DNA from: a bacterium HR26
GTDB taxonomy: Bacteria; Chloroflexota; Chloroflexia; Thermomicrobiales; Thermomicrobiaceae
Reading direction: 5' to 3'
Length of the DNA: 42,090 nucleotides
Assembly: GCA_002898875.1 (NCBI GenBank)
Contig: BEIC01000002.1
Location: forward strand, 1-42,090
The notes under the pieces were generated by a model that made no database searches, had not been told where the DNA came from, and saw nothing but the letters and a program-made list of their open reading frames with translations. The translations under genes were made by a program, and so were the position numbers. Below are positions 17,152 through 24,786 of this stretch, piece by piece. Positions within the stretch are counted from its first letter, which is position 1. Every line of letters begins with the position of its first letter.

Positions 17152-18534
17152 CTAAAGTTTCTCGAAGAGCCCCTCGTCCTTCATCCGGCGGATGGACCGA
17201 TCGAACGCCTCGATCGTCCGGTCGATGTCCTCAGGGGTGTGGGCTACGCTGAGCAGCCCGCCACCGTGGAAGAGGTCGACACCCTCATTGATCATCGCCT
17301 GGTGGAGCGCCAGCGAGAGGCGCGGGCTCATCCCAGCCTTGAGCACCTCCGGCGTGACTCCCTCTGGAACGCGGATGTCGTCGCCACGCTGGTTCGCACA
17401 GGTGTGCCCGAGCGCGATATGGAAGACGGAGCTCTCGCCCCAGACGAAGCCAGGGATACCTTGCTGGACGAGCACCTGGTTGAACCCTCGACGCAGCCGC
17501 GAAGCCATCGCGTCGGCATGCTGCTGCACGCCGGGATCAGCGACGAGCTGGAGACAGGCGCAGCCGGCAGCAGCCGAAAGCGGGTTCGCGTTGAAGGTGC
17601 CGGGGTGGCTGACCCGGCACCGGGCGTTCCAGCCGGGATCATCGCGGAACTCGAGCAGGCCTATGATATCGGCTCGGCCGCCGAGAGCGCCGCCTGGTAG
17701 CCCGCCAGCGACGATCTTGGCCATCGTCGTCAGGTCAGGTGTCACACCCGCCAGGCGCTGAGCCCCTCCGGGCGACCAGCGAAAGCCCGTAATGACCTCG
17801 TCGAAGATCAGCAGGGTCTGATGCCGCTGGGTGATCTCGCGCACGCGCTGTAGGAAACCCTCCGGCAGCGGGATCGAGGCCCAGGAGGCACCGCTCGGCT
17901 CCAGGATCACCGCCGCGACGTCGCCCTGGGCCAACCGCTGGTCGACAAAGTCCAGATCGTTGACCGGTGCCACCACAACCGTGTCGAAGATTGCTTTCGG
18001 GATCCCCGGTGACTCCTCCTGGGTAAAAGGCAGCTTCTCCCCCGGGATTGCGTAGTCGTGCCAGCCGTGGAAGTGACCGGCGAACTTGAGGATCTTGTCT
18101 CGCCCGGTGTAAGCGCGCGCCAAGCGCATGGCCATCAACGTCGCCTCAGTGCCCGAGGCAGTGAACTTGACCCGCTCGCAGGAGGGCTTCAATTCGCGGA
18201 TCCTCTCGGCCCACTCCAACTCAAGCTCGTGGCCGGCCCCGTAGTGAGTGCCACGACGCACCTGGGCCGCCACCGCCTCGACGATCTGCGGATGGGCGTG
18301 GCCGAGCAAGAGAGCGCCATGGCCCATGGTGTAGTCGATCAATTCGTTACCGTCGAGATCCCACTTCTTCGATCCGGCGGCTCGCTCGACGTAGATCGGA
18401 AACGGTTTCAAATAGCGCACATCGTGGGTGACGCCGCTGGGGAAGTCCTTCAGCGCGCGCTCGTACTGCGCGCGCGACGACGGGTGCCTCTCGATGTATT
18501 CCTGCTCGATCGTCAACGTTCGCTGCCGGGCCAT
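17152..18534 (-). CDS. class III aminotransferase, glutamate-1-semialdehyde-2,1-aminomutase-like
   Basis: A PLP-dependent fold-type I enzyme of 460 aa. The cofactor lysine is Lys273 in TTMAKIVAGGLPGGALGG, close to the aminomutase G-K-I-I-G-G-G-L-P-V-G-A-Y-G-G; Asp245 in IFDEVITGFRWSPGGAQ binds the PLP ring nitrogen. GHFHGWHDY and SGTEATLMAMRLAR are also typical of this group. The enzyme is longer than HemL (about 430 aa) and no haem genes are nearby, so an omega-amino-acid aminotransferase or a different aminomutase is as likely as HemL. ATG 18534 follows AAGGAGGG at 7 bases; the track's ATG 18561 is upstream of that site and less likely. Monocistronic by context. Confidence 0.88.
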   Translation of the reverse strand: MARQRTLTIEQEYIERHPSSRAQYERALKDFPSGVTHDVRYLKPFPIYVERAAGSKKWDLDGNELIDYTMGHGALLLGHAHPQIVEAVAAQVRRGTHYGAGHELELEWAERIRELKPSCERVKFTASGTEATLMAMRLARAYTGRDKILKFAGHFHGWHDYAIPGEKLPFTQEESPGIPKAIFDTVVVAPVNDLDFVDQRLAQGDVAAVILEPSGASWASIPLPEGFLQRVREITQRHQTLLIFDEVITGFRWSPGGAQRLAGVTPDLTTMAKIVAGGLPGGALGGRADIIGLLEFRDDPGWNARCRVSHPGTFNANPLSAAAGCACLQLVADPGVQQHADAMASRLRRGFNQVLVQQGIPGFVWGESSVFHIALGHTCANQRGDDIRVPEGVTPEVLKAGMSPRLSLALHQAMINEGVDLFHGGGLLSVAHTPEDIDRTIEAFDRSIRRMKDEGLFEKL

Positions 18535-18696
18535 CGAGCATCCCTCCTTAGGAATTGCCAAGATCAGCCAGCCGGCCGCCTCGAATTATCGGCCAACTCC
18601 CTTGCGCGTGTCTATGCCGCCGGCCGGCAAGCGACAGGGGTGATGCTGAATCGTGGCACCCGGCCGGCGCGAAAGGAGACCACATTGTCCGGCGCT

Positions 18697-19131
18697 TCAG
18701 CACATCAGAAGGGACGGGGGCGACTCTGCATCAGGCCCGCGCTGCGGTATCTCGCCTTCAGGCTGCATCCGGACCTGCGCGATCTTGCCTTCCCTGAACC
18801 AGAACGTGGCGAGAAAATGCGCGTGTAACTCCTGGCTGATCGGCAGCAGACCCTCTGGAGCGCTCGGGATCGGCCCAGCGACGGAAATCGAGGCGACTGC
18901 ACGATCGGCCTGGAGCTCGATCGACTGGACCGTGACCTGGAGATCGGGGTAGGCCAGGCGCGTGACCGAGGTATACAGCTTCAGGCTCTCGAGCCCCTCA
19001 ACGGGAGCGCGCAGCATACTCAGGTAGGTGATGTCCGGCGTGGCGATCTCGTCGAGGACTTCGAACCGCGATTGGTTCCAGACTTCCTCGAACCACCGGC
19101 GAATCAGCGTCACCCGCTCATCGAGCGTCAT
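18697..19131 (-). CDS. SnoaL-like/NTF2-fold protein (ester-cyclase type)
   Basis: A 144-aa protein with the SnoaL-like layout: an N-terminal helix TLDERVTLIRRWFEEVWNQ, then DEIATPDITYLSM, a VEGLESLKLYTSVTRLAYPDLQVTVQSI segment and a curved sheet ending FWFREGKIAQVRMQPE. Members bind small hydrophobic molecules and some are cyclases or isomerases; the catalytic role here is unknown. ATG 19131 has GGAGCAGGAG upstream and starts the domain. The track's GTG 19272 would add 47 residues with no family resemblance, although a TAAAAT lies just before it. It is divergent from the PAS/GAF/LuxR regulator across a 393-base gap. Confidence 0.8.
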   Translation of the reverse strand: MTLDERVTLIRRWFEEVWNQSRFEVLDEIATPDITYLSMLRAPVEGLESLKLYTSVTRLAYPDLQVTVQSIELQADRAVASISVAGPIPSAPEGLLPISQELHAHFLATFWFREGKIAQVRMQPEGEIPQRGPDAESPPSLLMC

Positions 19132-19277
19132 GCTCCTGCTCCTCAGCAAGTCGAGGCCATTAGCTCCTGGTGACCGCGTTACTAGCCCCATCACTCCACG
19201 CCGGACTTGGGGAGTCAGGGATGACGAGTCCGGGAAGAGGCTGCTTCCAATGTCTACGTATGCATCCGACACGGCAT

Positions 19278-19306
19278 ATTTTAGGCGATGATGGTGCTTC
19301 TGAGAA
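19278..19306 (-). promoter_or_regulatory. candidate promoter of the SnoaL-like gene
   Basis: Minus-strand TTCTCA (19306-19301), a 17-base spacer and TAAAAT (19283-19278). The -10 matches the consensus at five of six positions; the -35 is weak. The resulting leader to ATG 19131 would be about 140 bases. The element is only 5 bases from GTG 19272, so a leaderless longer product is a formal alternative. Confidence 0.35.
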
Positions 19307-19339
19307 GACGAAATGTCGCCATTTCAGAATACCTCGTTA

Positions 19340-19368
19340 TTCCCTTTCGCAGGGTTCGTTGCTACAAT
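19340..19368 (+). promoter_or_regulatory. candidate promoter of the PAS/GAF/LuxR regulator
   Basis: TTCCCT (19340-19345), 17 bases, TACAAT (19363-19368). This lies in the 393-base divergent region 19132-19524, which has lower GC than the genes and holds no ORF I believe in. Transcription from here would give a leader of about 150 bases to GTG 19525. Confidence 0.4.
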
Positions 19369-19524
19369 GGTGCAGCAGCTCACGACCGCTGCGGAGCACG
19401 GGACATCCTCGCACCGCCTCGGTGTCAGCCTGTGTATCCGTGTTCATCGCAGCGCGAGCGACCCCCTCAAGGCAAGCGGAGCCTCGTCGCGGGAAGAGGC
19501 TAGCGCGCGTAGTACCGGCAAGCA

Positions 19525-21750
19525 GTGAGTATCGGACCCTCAGGTATCCGGAGCGTGCAGGCTCGTATGGAGGCCGAAGTACGCGATACTATCGCCGATA
19601 TCCGCCAATGGGTAAGCCTGCTCCAGGCGATCGCCGACGCGGGTCAGCAGGCCATGATCGTAGTCGGCCCCGAGCGTCGAGTCCTCGCGTTCAACCGGGT
19701 GGCTCAGCAGTTGGCTGAGGCCTACTACCAGCCGCTCACTATGGGTGGTCTCTACGACGAGGCCCTACGCCCTGAAGATCGCGACGACATCGTGTCGTAT
19801 ATCCAGAGAGCGCTCGACGGCGCAATGGTCATCGCGGAGCGAAAGATTCCCCAAGGTGAAGGTCAGATTTGGGTCGAAAGCCATTTCACGCCGCTGCGCG
19901 ATGCGGCAGGCACCATCCGTGCCGTCTGTATCACCACGCTATCGATCGACGAGCGCAAACGAGCAGAGGAGAAGCTCCGGTCCGCGCGCGACCAGCTCCA
20001 GGCCGTACTCAGGAATATTGCCGATGGGGTGGCAGTGCTGACGCCGGATCGGCGTATTCGGTACGCCAACGAGGCGCTGGCACAGCTCTTCGGCTACTCA
20101 TCGGCTGATGAGCTGATCGGCCTGGAGCTGCTGGCAATCTACGAGCGCCTGCAGGTGCGGGAGGAGAACGGCGGACCGCTCTCGCTCGAGGCCATGCCGA
20201 GCTGGCAGGTCTTCCACGGGATGCCGGTGGCCGAGGCCACGTACTGCTTCCAGCCTCTGGGAAGCAGCGAAGACCGGTGGGCAGTGGTCAGAGCCCGACC
20301 GGTCCCCGACGACCGCGGTAACGTCCGCTTCGCCGTCAAGAGCTTCCACGACATCACGCAGCTTCGCCGCACGGAGCAAGGGCTTCGGCTCCTCGTCGAT
20401 GCTGGCGCCATTCTCGGCTCATCTCTGGAGTTCGAGCAGATCATCTCGCGAGTCGCCGAAATGGTGACCTCGCGGATAGCGAACTGGTGCGCGATCCATC
20501 TGGTCGCCGATGACGGCCAGGTGGTGCGTGTCGCCGCATCTCACGCCGACCCCGGCTCCTGGACCGCAGAGCTCGAGGCACAGCTCTCAGGCGATGGCGG
20601 GATGCCAGATGTCATCGCGAACGTGCTGCGCTCAGGCCGGGCAGAGCTGTACACGGAGATCCCTGGGGAGCGACTCCTTGGACACAAGCGTGCCAGGAAG
20701 TTGGTGGCCTTCTGGGACGATGTCGGCCCCCTCTCGGTGATCGCCGCCCCGTTGACCCGCCGGGAACGAGTCATCGGCGCGATTACGCTCATCTCAGCAA
20801 CGGCATACCGGCGGTATATACCAGCAGAGCTCGCCGTCGTCGAGGAGCTCGCGCGGCAGATCGCCCAGGCGGTCGAGAACGCCCGCCTCTACCGGGAGGC
20901 GCGGCGAGCTGCCGAAGAGGCACGCCGCCAGGCCGCCCGCGTCCAGATACTTGCGGAGGCATCGCGGATCTTCGCCGAGGCGAGCCTCGACTTCCGCGCG
21001 GTGCTGCACGCCGTTGGCCGCTTCATCGGCGAGCGACTCGGTGATCTCTGCGTGGTTCGCCTGCTCTCGGACGACGGGCGCTGGCTCGAGCCAGCGATGG
21101 TGTACCATCCCGACCCAGCCGTTCAACGCGCTCTGCGCGACGTGGCGGCGATGACCCCGCTGAGGGCCGATCAGGGGATTTCGGGCAAGGTCGTGCAGAG
21201 CGGCGCAGCCCTGCTGGTACCGGACGTCGCGGCACTACCCCCGGAGAAGCGTCGCTCGCTGATGCCGAGCTATGAACTCGTTCGCGAGCACTTCGACTTG
21301 CGGAGCCTCCTGGCCGCGCCGCTCCGCGAGCAGGGGCAGGTGATCGGAGCCATCAGCCTGGCACGAAGCGCCCCTGAGCGCCCCTACTCGATGGACGATC
21401 AGCTCTTGCTGCAGGAGCTGGCGGACCGCGCGGCGCTGGCTATCGCCAATGCCCGGCTCTATGAGCGAATCATGCAGCGCGAGCGCCGGCTCCTTGGCGC
21501 GTTCGCACCGGCAGCGGGCGAGCGCAGCCCGGCGCTCATCCCCGAGCCGCTCACCAAGCGCGAGCGAGAGGTGCTGTGGTATCTCGCGCAAGGGATGACC
21601 AACCAGGAGATCGCGGACACGCTCCACGTCAGCCAGGGTACGATCAAGGCGCACGTCGAGAGCATCATCGGCAAGCTTGGCGTGGCGAACCGAACCCAGG
21701 CTGTGGTCCGCGCCCTCGAGCTCGGCCTGCTCGTCTCGCCGCTGGAGTAA
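19525..21750 (+). CDS. PAS-PAS-GAF-GAF-LuxR-type transcriptional regulator
   Basis: A 741-aa one-component sensor-regulator. Reading by eye, PAS 1 spans about residues 25-125 (ending in the PAC-like RAVCITTLSIDERKRAEEKL), PAS 2 about 140-275 (AVLTPDRRIRYANEALAQLFGY), GAF 1 about 290-440, GAF 2 about 465-645, and the LuxR/GerE helix-turn-helix 676-741 (LTKREREVLWYLAQGMTNQEIADTLHVS). There is no histidine-kinase or receiver domain, so ligand or redox sensing by PAS/GAF would act directly on DNA binding. GTG 19525 has a poor ribosome site; ATG 19567 (14 codons later) is possible. It may control the two paralogous small genes 22386-23699 downstream (inference). Confidence 0.9.
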   Translation: MSIGPSGIRSVQARMEAEVRDTIADIRQWVSLLQAIADAGQQAMIVVGPERRVLAFNRVAQQLAEAYYQPLTMGGLYDEALRPEDRDDIVSYIQRALDGAMVIAERKIPQGEGQIWVESHFTPLRDAAGTIRAVCITTLSIDERKRAEEKLRSARDQLQAVLRNIADGVAVLTPDRRIRYANEALAQLFGYSSADELIGLELLAIYERLQVREENGGPLSLEAMPSWQVFHGMPVAEATYCFQPLGSSEDRWAVVRARPVPDDRGNVRFAVKSFHDITQLRRTEQGLRLLVDAGAILGSSLEFEQIISRVAEMVTSRIANWCAIHLVADDGQVVRVAASHADPGSWTAELEAQLSGDGGMPDVIANVLRSGRAELYTEIPGERLLGHKRARKLVAFWDDVGPLSVIAAPLTRRERVIGAITLISATAYRRYIPAELAVVEELARQIAQAVENARLYREARRAAEEARRQAARVQILAEASRIFAEASLDFRAVLHAVGRFIGERLGDLCVVRLLSDDGRWLEPAMVYHPDPAVQRALRDVAAMTPLRADQGISGKVVQSGAALLVPDVAALPPEKRRSLMPSYELVREHFDLRSLLAAPLREQGQVIGAISLARSAPERPYSMDDQLLLQELADRAALAIANARLYERIMQRERRLLGAFAPAAGERSPALIPEPLTKREREVLWYLAQGMTNQEIADTLHVSQGTIKAHVESIIGKLGVANRTQAVVRALELGLLVSPLE

Positions 21751-22248
21751 GCCAGGGCTCGCTGTGCTGCCAGCCAGCGCCGAGCCAGCCAGGGCGGCAC
21801 AGAGAGCCGCCCATAGCTGCTACCTTTCCACTGTTCTCTTCACGAGAGACAAGGCCCGGGTGAAGCCCCCTGCCGACTGCCTAGCGTGCTCTGCTCAGGA
21901 TTCCAGACCGCCCGGCACGATCGGGATGCGAGCGACGCGGCGCAGCGCGACCGGCTGGCCACCGCCACCCGCTCACATTCAGGATGCGGTGGGCCTGGAG
22001 TCGCCCGGTCTGGCGAGAAACTTCACCAGAACGAAATTCCGCTGTTCGGGGAATGTACGTTCAGCCGGATGGCCGACGCTCGCCCGCTCGATCCCTCGTA
22101 TCGTGGGTGCAGACGACTGCCCCCGTTCGTGGAGGTGGAGGACGGGCGTATTCGTCGGAGCGGTGGTCGTCAAATCGGGCAAGGCCAGTCGTTGACGGCA
22201 AAGCCGGCCCAAGTACACGGGCGAGTTCACGCCAGGGAGGGGTTGGCG

Positions 22249-22275
22249 ATGAGCAAAGACCCCACATGCGCATGA
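22249..22275 (+). CDS. candidate leader mini-ORF (8 aa)
   Basis: ATG 22249 opens MSKDPTCA-stop. A GGGAGGGG ribosome site lies about 6 bases upstream, better than that of most genes in the window. The last codons TGC GCA TGA form the left arm of the hairpin TGCGCA-tgagga-TGCGCA, an arrangement in which ribosome position would decide folding. The next gene starts 110 bases downstream. Translation and regulatory function are inferred only; the codons themselves do not point to a specific amino acid signal. Confidence 0.25.
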   Translation: MSKDPTCA

Positions 22276-22298
22276 GGATGCGCACCGGGTCATGCCCG
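22267..22298 (+). promoter_or_regulatory. two tandem short hairpins in the leader
   Basis: TGCGCA (22267-22272) pairs with TGCGCA (22279-22284) around a 6-base loop, and CGGG (22286-22289) pairs with CCCG (22295-22298) around a 5-base loop. The first overlaps the end of the mini-ORF. They lie about 90 bases before the gene at 22386. Confidence 0.3.
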
Positions 22299-22385
22299 CA
22301 CCGAGCAGCAGGAAAAGCGCGGTGGGAAGCCGGGCAATTCGTCGATCATGCAGTTCGGCGACGTTCGAGCTGGAGGGCTGGATCG

Positions 22386-22925
22386 ATGGTTCAGGTGATG
22401 TCGCGCGAAGAGCAGATGACCAAGGCTGAGTCGTTTCTCTACGAGGTTCGTCACCTGGGGAAGATCCCCACACGGTGGCAGGGGCTCGTCCTGGCACATC
22501 GCCCTGGTGGCGAGTGCTTCTCCTGCTCGATACTCCCGCTCACCCCTGAGGAAGTGGTTGGGCTCTGTGGCGAAGGCTGGGCGTTTGGCGTCTGCGCGGT
22601 TCGCCCGGGAACCTATGAGGCCTGCAACGGCGATCTGCTGATTGTCAGGGGCGATGGTTCCTGGGTGCTGAGCCCGAACGGCGACGGCCAGGTAGGCCAG
22701 GAGCGGCTCTGGCGGATCACGACGCTCGAGCACGCCGGCCGGGAGTTCACGGCTCGGGTTTACACTGATGAGCAGTGCTCCTCGTGGCAGCTCTGGGAGC
22801 ACGGCATGCTCATCGCCCGGAGCGAGCTGCGGCCGATCAGCCCGTTGCAGGCCTGGCACGAACTGCTGTACCTCGCCGCCGCTGTCGTCGCCGAGGTCGA
22901 TGAGGACGACTGGCAAGAGGGGTAA
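22386..22925 (+). CDS. small protein of unknown function, paralogue A of a tandem pair
   Basis: A 179-aa soluble protein without signal peptide or membrane helix. Its conserved parts, judged against the next gene, are SILPLTPEEVVGLCGEGWAF in the N-terminal half and FTARVYTDEQ...WQLWEHG...WHELLYLAAAVVAEV in the C-terminal half, suggesting a beta-rich middle and a terminal amphipathic helix. Five cysteines in the first two thirds (FSCS, GLC, GVC, EAC) plus one later are absent from the paralogue. ATG 22386 is chosen because GGAGGG ends 8 bases before it; the track's start at 21984 adds 134 low-complexity residues. I do not recognise a family. It follows the PAS/GAF/LuxR regulator. Confidence 0.75.
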   Translation: MVQVMSREEQMTKAESFLYEVRHLGKIPTRWQGLVLAHRPGGECFSCSILPLTPEEVVGLCGEGWAFGVCAVRPGTYEACNGDLLIVRGDGSWVLSPNGDGQVGQERLWRITTLEHAGREFTARVYTDEQCSSWQLWEHGMLIARSELRPISPLQAWHELLYLAAAVVAEVDEDDWQEG

Positions 22926-22931
22926 CCGCGG

Positions 22932-22964
22932 ATGACCGATCGGCACGGCGTTTCAGGGGATTGA
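22932..22964 (+). CDS. candidate leader mini-ORF (10 aa)
   Basis: ATG 22932 opens MTDRHGVSGD-stop, 6 bases after the stop codon of the upstream gene, with GAGGGG 9 bases before it. Immediately after it come GCACGCG...CGTGC segments that can pair with either of two partners (GCACGGC 22943-22949 inside the mini-ORF, or GCACG 22972-22976). The layout echoes the mini-ORF before the first paralogue. Expression is unproven. Confidence 0.22.
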   Translation: MTDRHGVSGD

Positions 22965-23109
22965 CGGCTGGGCACGCGCATGCCGTGCGGACTGACCCGG
23001 CGTCCAGTAGTGCAGCGCAACCCGGAGGGAACCGGAATTTGCGAAGGGTTCGCATCAAAAGCGGGCTGATCCGCTGAATCACCGGATACTGGGGCGAGAG
23101 GTGGACGAG

Positions 23110-23147
23110 CTCGACATCGCAGGGACGCGAGACCTTGCGATGTCGAG
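23110..23147 (+). promoter_or_regulatory. 15-bp stem-loop just upstream of paralogue B
   Basis: CTCGACATCGCA (23110-23121) is the exact reverse complement of TGCGATGTCGAG (23136-23147); three more pairs (GGG/CCT, one G-T) extend the stem to 15 bp with an 8-base loop. It ends 24 bases before ATG 23172 and just before the GAGAGGGGAGC ribosome site. Two smaller hairpins stand upstream: TGCGAA-GGG-TTCGCA (23040-23054) and AGCGG-gctgat-CCGCT (23060-23075). With no T-run it is more likely a translation- or stability-controlling structure than a terminator. Confidence 0.6.
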
Positions 23148-23171
23148 TCCATTTCGACGAGAGGGGAGCAC

Positions 23172-23699
23172 ATGGCAGCTACCGAGTTCCGACTCCATGC
23201 GGTGACCCATCGGCGAGCGCTGCGCCGTCGTTGGCTCCCGGCCCGGCTCGGGGTGCGAGAGATGCCAGGCGGCGGAGACCTGAAGCGCTCGGTACTCGCG
23301 CTCTCCGACCAGGAGGTGCAGGAGCTCGCCACCGAGCCATGGGCGCTGTCCGTGAACCGTATCCCCGAGCTGACCTTCACGCTCTTCGGGTCGAGCGAGC
23401 TAACCGTACCGGGTCTTGGTGCGTGGCAGGTGGCGGCCGGCGAAGCTGACGGCAGGGGATCGGCCTCCCCGACGAGCCTCCGCTTCCGGAACCGGATACT
23501 CACAGCTCGGGTATGGCGAGATCGGACGCGCTACCGCTGGGAGCTCCGAGACGGGGACGTGCCGATCGCTGAGGGATCGGCCCGTCGGCGCCGAGCGACA
23601 CGATCCTGGTGCGAGGTACTCCACCTGGCTGCGGCCCTGGTGACCGGCATCGGGAAGCTCGAGCTTAAGCCACGGCTGCTTCGGAACGAGCAATCGTGA
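23172..23699 (+). CDS. small protein of unknown function, paralogue B of a tandem pair
   Basis: A 175-aa soluble protein with an Arg-rich N-terminus. It aligns by eye over most of its length with the preceding gene product: SVLALSDQEVQELATEPWALSV versus SILPLTPEEVVGLCGEGWAFGV, and LTARVWRDRTRYRWELRDGD...WCEVLHLAAALVTGI versus FTARVYTDEQCSSWQLWEHG...WHELLYLAAAVVAEV. Identity is low, so the duplication is old or both were gained separately. It has one Cys only. ATG 23172 follows GAGAGGGGAGCAC. Function unknown; the pair may be targets of the upstream LuxR-type regulator. Confidence 0.75.
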   Translation: MAATEFRLHAVTHRRALRRRWLPARLGVREMPGGGDLKRSVLALSDQEVQELATEPWALSVNRIPELTFTLFGSSELTVPGLGAWQVAAGEADGRGSASPTSLRFRNRILTARVWRDRTRYRWELRDGDVPIAEGSARRRRATRSWCEVLHLAAALVTGIGKLELKPRLLRNEQS

Positions 23700-23713
23700 G
23701 CGATGGACACCGG

Positions 23714-23742
23714 TTGACAGCGACGGGCAGGGATGATACGAG
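23714..23742 (+). promoter_or_regulatory. candidate sigma70-type promoter of the D-cysteine desulfhydrase gene
   Basis: A perfect TTGACA (23714-23719), 17 bases, then TACGAG (23737-23742; the overlapping GATACG is an alternative). Start of transcription near 23749 would give a leader of about 35 bases with GGAGGAGGAGAGG as ribosome site before ATG 23785. Confidence 0.4.
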
Positions 23743-23784
23743 AGGGCAGATGGTGCTGACCGAGCGGAGGAGGAGAGGCAAACG

Positions 23785-24786
23785 ATGCACCTGCCCGGAC
23801 TGCCCCGCTGGCCACTGGCCCACCTGCCCACACCCCTGGAGGACGCCCGCAATCTGAGCGCCGCACTCGATGGTCCACGCATCCTCATCAAGCGCGACGA
23901 TCTCACCGGTCTAGCCCTGGGCGGCAACAAGACGCGCAAGCTCGAGTACCTGATCGCCGATGCCTGGGAGCAGGGCGCAACCGTCGTCATCACCACCGGA
24001 GCGGTTCAGTCGAACCACTGCCGCCAAACCGCCGCGGCGGCCCGCATTGCGGGTATGCGCTGTGTCCTGGTACTGAGCAGCGCAGATGCCGACCCGCCTG
24101 TGCAGGGCAACCTGCTGCTCGACTACCTGCTCGGAGCCGAGGTGCACTTCGTACGCGACCGGAGCGAGCGCATGCCAGCGATGGAGCGGATCGCCGAGGA
24201 GCTGCGCCGGCAGGGCGAGCGGCCGTATATCATCCCCACCGGCGGCTCCACCCCGCTCGGAGCATCCGCCTACGTCGCCGCTGCCTTCGAGCTGACCCAA
24301 CAGCTCATCGCCAATAGCTGGGAGGTTTCCCGCGTCTACGTCACCAGCAGCACGTCGGGCGGCACGCATGCCGGTTTGGCGCTCGGCGCCCGGCTGTGCG
24401 GCAACCCGTTCCAGGTGGTCGGCATCGGAATCGAGGCAGACGCCGCGGCGATCCGCGACGTGGTGCTGCCCCTGGCGAACGCGACGGCCGAGTTCCTCGA
24501 TGTCGACGTTCGGCTGGGGCCGAACGACCTCCATATCGATGACCGGTACGTCGGGCCGGGATACGGGATACCGACCGGGGAATGCCTGGAGGCGATCAGG
24601 CTGGCGGCTCAGACCGAGGGGCTGCTGCTCGACCCGGTGTACACCGGCAAGACGCTCGCCGGGCTGATTGACCACATCCGGCGCGGGGAGATCGGGCGGG
24701 ACGAGACGGTGGTCTTCATCCATACCGGTGGCGCTCCCGCGCTCTTCGCGCAGGCCGACGCGCTCGTGGCCTCCCTCCAGCGCTGA
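23785..24786 (+). CDS. D-cysteine desulfhydrase / ACC-deaminase family PLP enzyme
   Basis: A 333-aa fold-type II PLP enzyme. Lys49 in LALGGNKTRKLEYL is the Schiff-base lysine; VQSNHCRQTAAAA is the substrate/PLP loop and GGSTPLGASAYV the phosphate region. The domain order and length match DcyD (D-cysteine to pyruvate, sulfide and ammonia) and 1-aminocyclopropane-1-carboxylate deaminase, which differ by a few active-site residues that I cannot settle by eye; DcyD-type is more common in this bacterial context. The start is supported by GGAGGAGGAGAGG. It ends only 11 bases from the convergent MmgE/PrpD gene. Confidence 0.88.
   Translation: MHLPGLPRWPLAHLPTPLEDARNLSAALDGPRILIKRDDLTGLALGGNKTRKLEYLIADAWEQGATVVITTGAVQSNHCRQTAAAARIAGMRCVLVLSSADADPPVQGNLLLDYLLGAEVHFVRDRSERMPAMERIAEELRRQGERPYIIPTGGSTPLGASAYVAAAFELTQQLIANSWEVSRVYVTSSTSGGTHAGLALGARLCGNPFQVVGIGIEADAAAIRDVVLPLANATAEFLDVDVRLGPNDLHIDDRYVGPGYGIPTGECLEAIRLAAQTEGLLLDPVYTGKTLAGLIDHIRRGEIGRDETVVFIHTGGAPALFAQADALVASLQR

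Follow-up and report, generated by a model that had tools for sequence, protein, structure and literature searches.

Orphan gene families with lineage-specific duplication lack detectable relatives beyond a single genus, hold several paralogues and are under purifying selection. The same appears to apply to a family of small proteins, here named A, B and C, two of which (A and B) are encoded next to each other in the window, by which we mean the whole stretch of 42,090 nucleotides analysed. Unlike such orphan families, A/B/C has one copy, B, with a reversed net charge, and A and B sit in an accessory segment together with a LuxR-type sensor. A further point of comparison is provided by the PAS/GAF-LuxR one-component regulators, since the gene upstream of A and B has the same domain make-up; this gene lies beside A and B without being homologous to them, and its control of them is putative. 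At the structural level, the nearest lead is MmoD, the inhibitory subunit of soluble methane monooxygenase (PDB 6d7k), in which about 60 residues align to a small domain in the predicted models of both A and C. A/B/C differs from MmoD in having no sequence relationship to it and a whole-protein TM of at most 0.28.

The genome that contains the window as its contig C2 (G000, a draft) was compared with its closest relative in our collection, Thermalbibacter longus CFH 74404 (G001), and with two Thermomicrobiaceae MAGs (G002 and G003) placed in the same genus as these two, giving a genus sample of four genomes. Five shared genes pair the window genome with T. longus and the two MAGs with each other, with 488 informative sites for this arrangement vs 28 and 23 for the others. 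In the literature on Thermalbibacter we found nothing related to A, B or C. The features of the locus are collected in Table 1.

Table 1. Features of the A/B locus and its surroundings, in window coordinates.
Feature	Position	Strand	Evidence or description
Class-III aminotransferase, left-hand boundary	17152..18561	-	Pfam PF00202; syntenic in all four genomes
Present/absent segment, about 5.1 kb	18595..23709	.	In window genome and T. longus, not in G002 and G003
SnoaL-like protein, in segment	18697..19272	-	Pfam PF07366, E 5e-13
PAS-PAS-GAF-GAF-LuxR (GerE) one-component regulator, in segment	19525..21750	+	Pfam
Conserved block, LuxR-A intergenic region	22017..22135	.	91/119 identical to T. longus
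Protein A, acidic paralogue	22386..22925	+	179 aa, pI 4.8, CxxC motif ECFSCS; ORF and paralogy
Hairpin, leader of B	23110..23147	+	Inverted repeat, 15-nt arms, 8-nt loop
Protein B, basic paralogue	23172..23699	+	175 aa, 27 Arg, pI 11.4; ORF and paralogy
PLP-dependent enzyme (PALP), right-hand boundary	23785..24786	+	Pfam PF00291; 92-94% identical in the other three genomes

A first-pass annotation made from the DNA letters had described two ORFs of 179 and 175 aa that align over most of their length at low identity, one cysteine-rich and the other arginine-rich. Both ORFs were found where it had placed them, and the alignment held: A and B are 32% identical over 164 residues (BLASTP E 5e-16), with a Smith-Waterman score of 161, while 1000 shuffles averaged 31 and peaked at 62. 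Judged by their sequences, A and B are genuine, strongly diverged paralogues. The contrast in composition was borne out as well, with 6 Cys, 12 Arg and a pI of 4.77 in A and 1 Cys, 27 Arg and a pI of 11.37 in B. Net charge is -12 for A and +11 for B, and the T. longus counterparts have -13 and +13. The CxxC motif of A is kept in T. longus A and is missing from B and C. As the highest 19-residue hydropathy in the family proteins is only 1.1-1.3, a membrane span is not expected.

The orthologues in T. longus are 87% identical for A and 82% for B. Comparing the window genome with T. longus gives a dN/dS of 0.095 in A and 0.168 in B, and the differences at codon positions 1/2/3 number 13/6/39 in A and 10/7/37 in B; low dN/dS and substitutions mainly at the third position indicate that both genes are coding. 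Two observations support 22386 as the start of A, namely a GGAGGG ahead of the ATG and the near-complete identity of the start region in T. longus (95% across the start).

The third copy, C, lies on a separate contig of the window genome (contig C61, L020:6750-7268) and was found at its own locus in each of the four genomes sampled. It is convergent with a pdxH-like gene; G002 also has an MFS-like transporter divergent from it. Both gene names come from a reading of the translations. There are three copies of the family in the window genome and in T. longus and one in each of the two MAGs. Full-length similarity among the members is significant; identity is about 43% between A and C and about 31% between B and C, with 28 invariant columns in the family alignment. 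C has a net charge of -9 to -13, and the signs of the charges of all three proteins are unchanged in T. longus. The dN between A and C (0.57) is far above that between the C genes of the window genome and G002 (0.12), suggesting that the duplication probably predates the split of the genus, provided that A, B and C evolve at similar rates.

The view that A and B could not be placed in a named family has survived the searches made here. The profiles of Pfam, NCBIfam, PHROGs and PADLOC gave no match under E 0.1 for A, B or C, and a profile search of PDB chains found no relative (best E 0.17). We ran a family profile against 158 genomes from the class and 400 from the phylum Chloroflexota. It returned no convincing further relative; the only other matches were marginal and incomplete, extending over 41 positions (E 6.5e-4) and 57 positions (E 0.0024). 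Scans of GTDB contigs, viral contigs, plasmids and phages, which rely on short conserved peptides and which remote relatives may escape, recovered the known copies only, or nothing. No diverged C was detectable near pdxH in Thermomicrobiaceae of other genera. Weak tblastn matches to B in three genomes of other genera (G048, G017 and G028) all contain stops and escape the family profile at a cut-off of E 0.01; we read them as arginine-rich compositional matches. An internal repeat was also considered and rejected, as hhalign found no match between the N- and C-terminal halves of the protein. Within these searches, the family appears to be restricted to the genus Thermalbibacter.

A and B belong to a segment that was mapped by blastn against L057, L058 and L024, by its junction sequences and by comparison of the genome quartet. 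In the window genome and in T. longus it holds the SnoaL-like gene, the PAS/GAF/LuxR gene, A and B; in G002 and G003 the aminotransferase adjoins the PLP enzyme, the aligned flanks lying about 100-150 bp apart. Given the pairing of the four genomes, one gain or one loss explains this pattern. As the paralogues are probably older than the genus, loss of the segment in the two MAGs, or its arrival from a relative outside the sample, is favoured over a recent duplication in place, again assuming similar rates. No transposase was found among the recognised genes of the segment, and no mobile-element ends were found at its borders, which share no 9-mers, direct or inverted. The SnoaL-like gene diverges unusually fast, being 60% identical in T. 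longus, where the LuxR and PLP genes reach 83-93%. Between the segment and the PLP gene (23709-23784), a TTGACA-like motif is kept in all four genomes, which makes a separate promoter for the PLP gene probable at the segment border.

The leaders of A and B had been noted as unusual, and comparison with T. longus located real conserved blocks in both. Ahead of B, positions 23103-23142 are 95% identical to T. longus vs 53-65% over most of the A-B gap. This stretch forms a strong hairpin directly ahead of B: the hairpin region (23100-23155, 56 nt) has an RNA fold z of -6.8, and the T. longus stretch one of -4.9; the hairpin is present as a single copy per genome, in these two genomes. It is a candidate terminator, attenuator or protein site. 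The block ahead of A is 76% identical, and about 80% in its core, vs roughly 45% in its surroundings, and its core motif is single copy. Several readings of this block were tried. It has some triplet periodicity, but as a small gene it was rejected since the periodic frame on the + strand has stops in T. longus and that on the - strand has stops in both genomes; as a structured RNA it folds no better than shuffles (z-scores -0.6 and +0.5). No convincing relatives of the block were found, and Rfam gave no match. It could be a control region or the relic of a gene. Taken together, the hairpin and this block are plausible as putative control sites.

AlphaFold2 models of A and C were built on an alignment of six sequences and reached a pLDDT of 79.4 and a pTM of 0.58 for A, and 78.9 and 0.55 for C. 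At this pTM and alignment depth, the two models have an identical order of strands and helices, running from an N-terminal part that is rich in beta strands and has short helices, through four strands, to a C-terminal helix. Foldseek searches of both models against the PDB and viral models returned nothing at E < 0.01, and the predicted fold would correspond to no solved fold as a whole. MmoD recurs in Foldseek for both models over the aligned stretch, with a probability of 0.89-0.99 and a target TM of 0.47-0.70, which raises the idea that A/B/C is a highly diverged member of a known family, defined by a C-terminal four-strand meander plus helix (MmoD-like or a similar small fold). A meander plus helix is a simple, common arrangement. 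The MmoD matches have an E of only 0.13-0.24 and query TM values no higher than that given above, MmoD is not among the matches of the profile search of PDB chains carried to E 10, and A/B/C has no Pfam or NCBIfam match. With such E values and no sequence support, the partial match to the model domain may be taken as a lead only, and we consider descent from a known family of this kind very unlikely.

The sequence of B in T. longus bears on two further explanations. Its codon 115, a tryptophan codon in the window genome, is an in-frame TGA, yet the frame runs on past it and the invariant residues of the family beyond are still present, so that the stop may be recent, be bypassed by read-through or reflect a sequencing error. 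The same TGA could mean that B is on its way to becoming a pseudogene in both species, a duplicate in decay beside functional A and C. Of the three orthologue pairs that link the window genome with T. longus, that of B indeed has the highest dN (0.113; A 0.079, C 0.048), and in B it reaches 0.21 past the stop vs 0.07 ahead of it. We find decay doubtful, because dN/dS is still 0.17 overall and 0.12 ahead of the stop, substitutions fall mostly at codon position 3, the ORF is intact in the window genome, and residues 116-160 past the stop have changed modestly (80% identity, dN 0.11). The first-pass annotation had instead proposed a regulated two-protein system downstream of a PAS/GAF/LuxR regulator. 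The regulator itself is as described, with two PAS, two GAF and one LuxR domain, and its only full-length orthologue within the Thermomicrobiaceae is in T. longus (83% identical). In its most developed form the proposal would make LuxR-A-B a dedicated system, in which the sensor switches on A and B and these act together as an acidic/basic heteromer; the opposite net charges of A and B, found in T. longus too, and the conserved leaders are what such a system would lead one to expect. The predicted co-occurrence of the three genes stood in part: the order LuxR-A-B is kept in T. longus and so is common to two species, but the whole pattern amounts to a single gain or loss event and carries little evidential weight. 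An operon system would consist of closely spaced genes, kept together and intact. What we found are separate leaders, gaps of 635 bp between LuxR and A and 246 bp between A and B, which do not suggest one operon, a stop in T. longus B, by which the pair is not kept intact, and a C gene that stands alone, with no regulator, in G002 and G003. The proposal of a regulated two-protein system is thus not borne out, and we judge a dedicated LuxR-A-B system unlikely.

The reading that we prefer, to which we give about an even chance, is that A/B/C is a small, soluble, mostly beta-stranded and genus-restricted family with a core member, C, and two accessory members, A and B, of which B is charge-reversed. 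C would be the core copy, while A and B would be old, diverged copies residing in the 5.1-kb accessory segment with the PAS/GAF/LuxR sensor and the SnoaL-like gene. A and C may share an intracellular binding or adaptor job, a role that we infer only from size, solubility and the absence of an enzyme-family match. B would have turned basic and become specialised and dispensable, perhaps binding nucleic acid or the acidic A and C. The conserved leader of each gene may serve in its control, and the likeliest regulator of A would be the LuxR protein. A bolder version, in which a genus-specific fold gave rise to an acidic and a strongly basic partner and B binds nucleic acid and controls its own message via the hairpin, seems to us highly improbable.

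In conclusion, A/B/C is a well-bounded orphan family, with selection at the protein level, three paralogues, one of them charge-reversed, and a clear presence/absence segment. Taken alone the family settles no open question. As T. longus CFH 74404 is a named strain, the A, B and C genes should be accessible to experiment, and the family may be used as a case of how genus-specific proteins arise and diverge.
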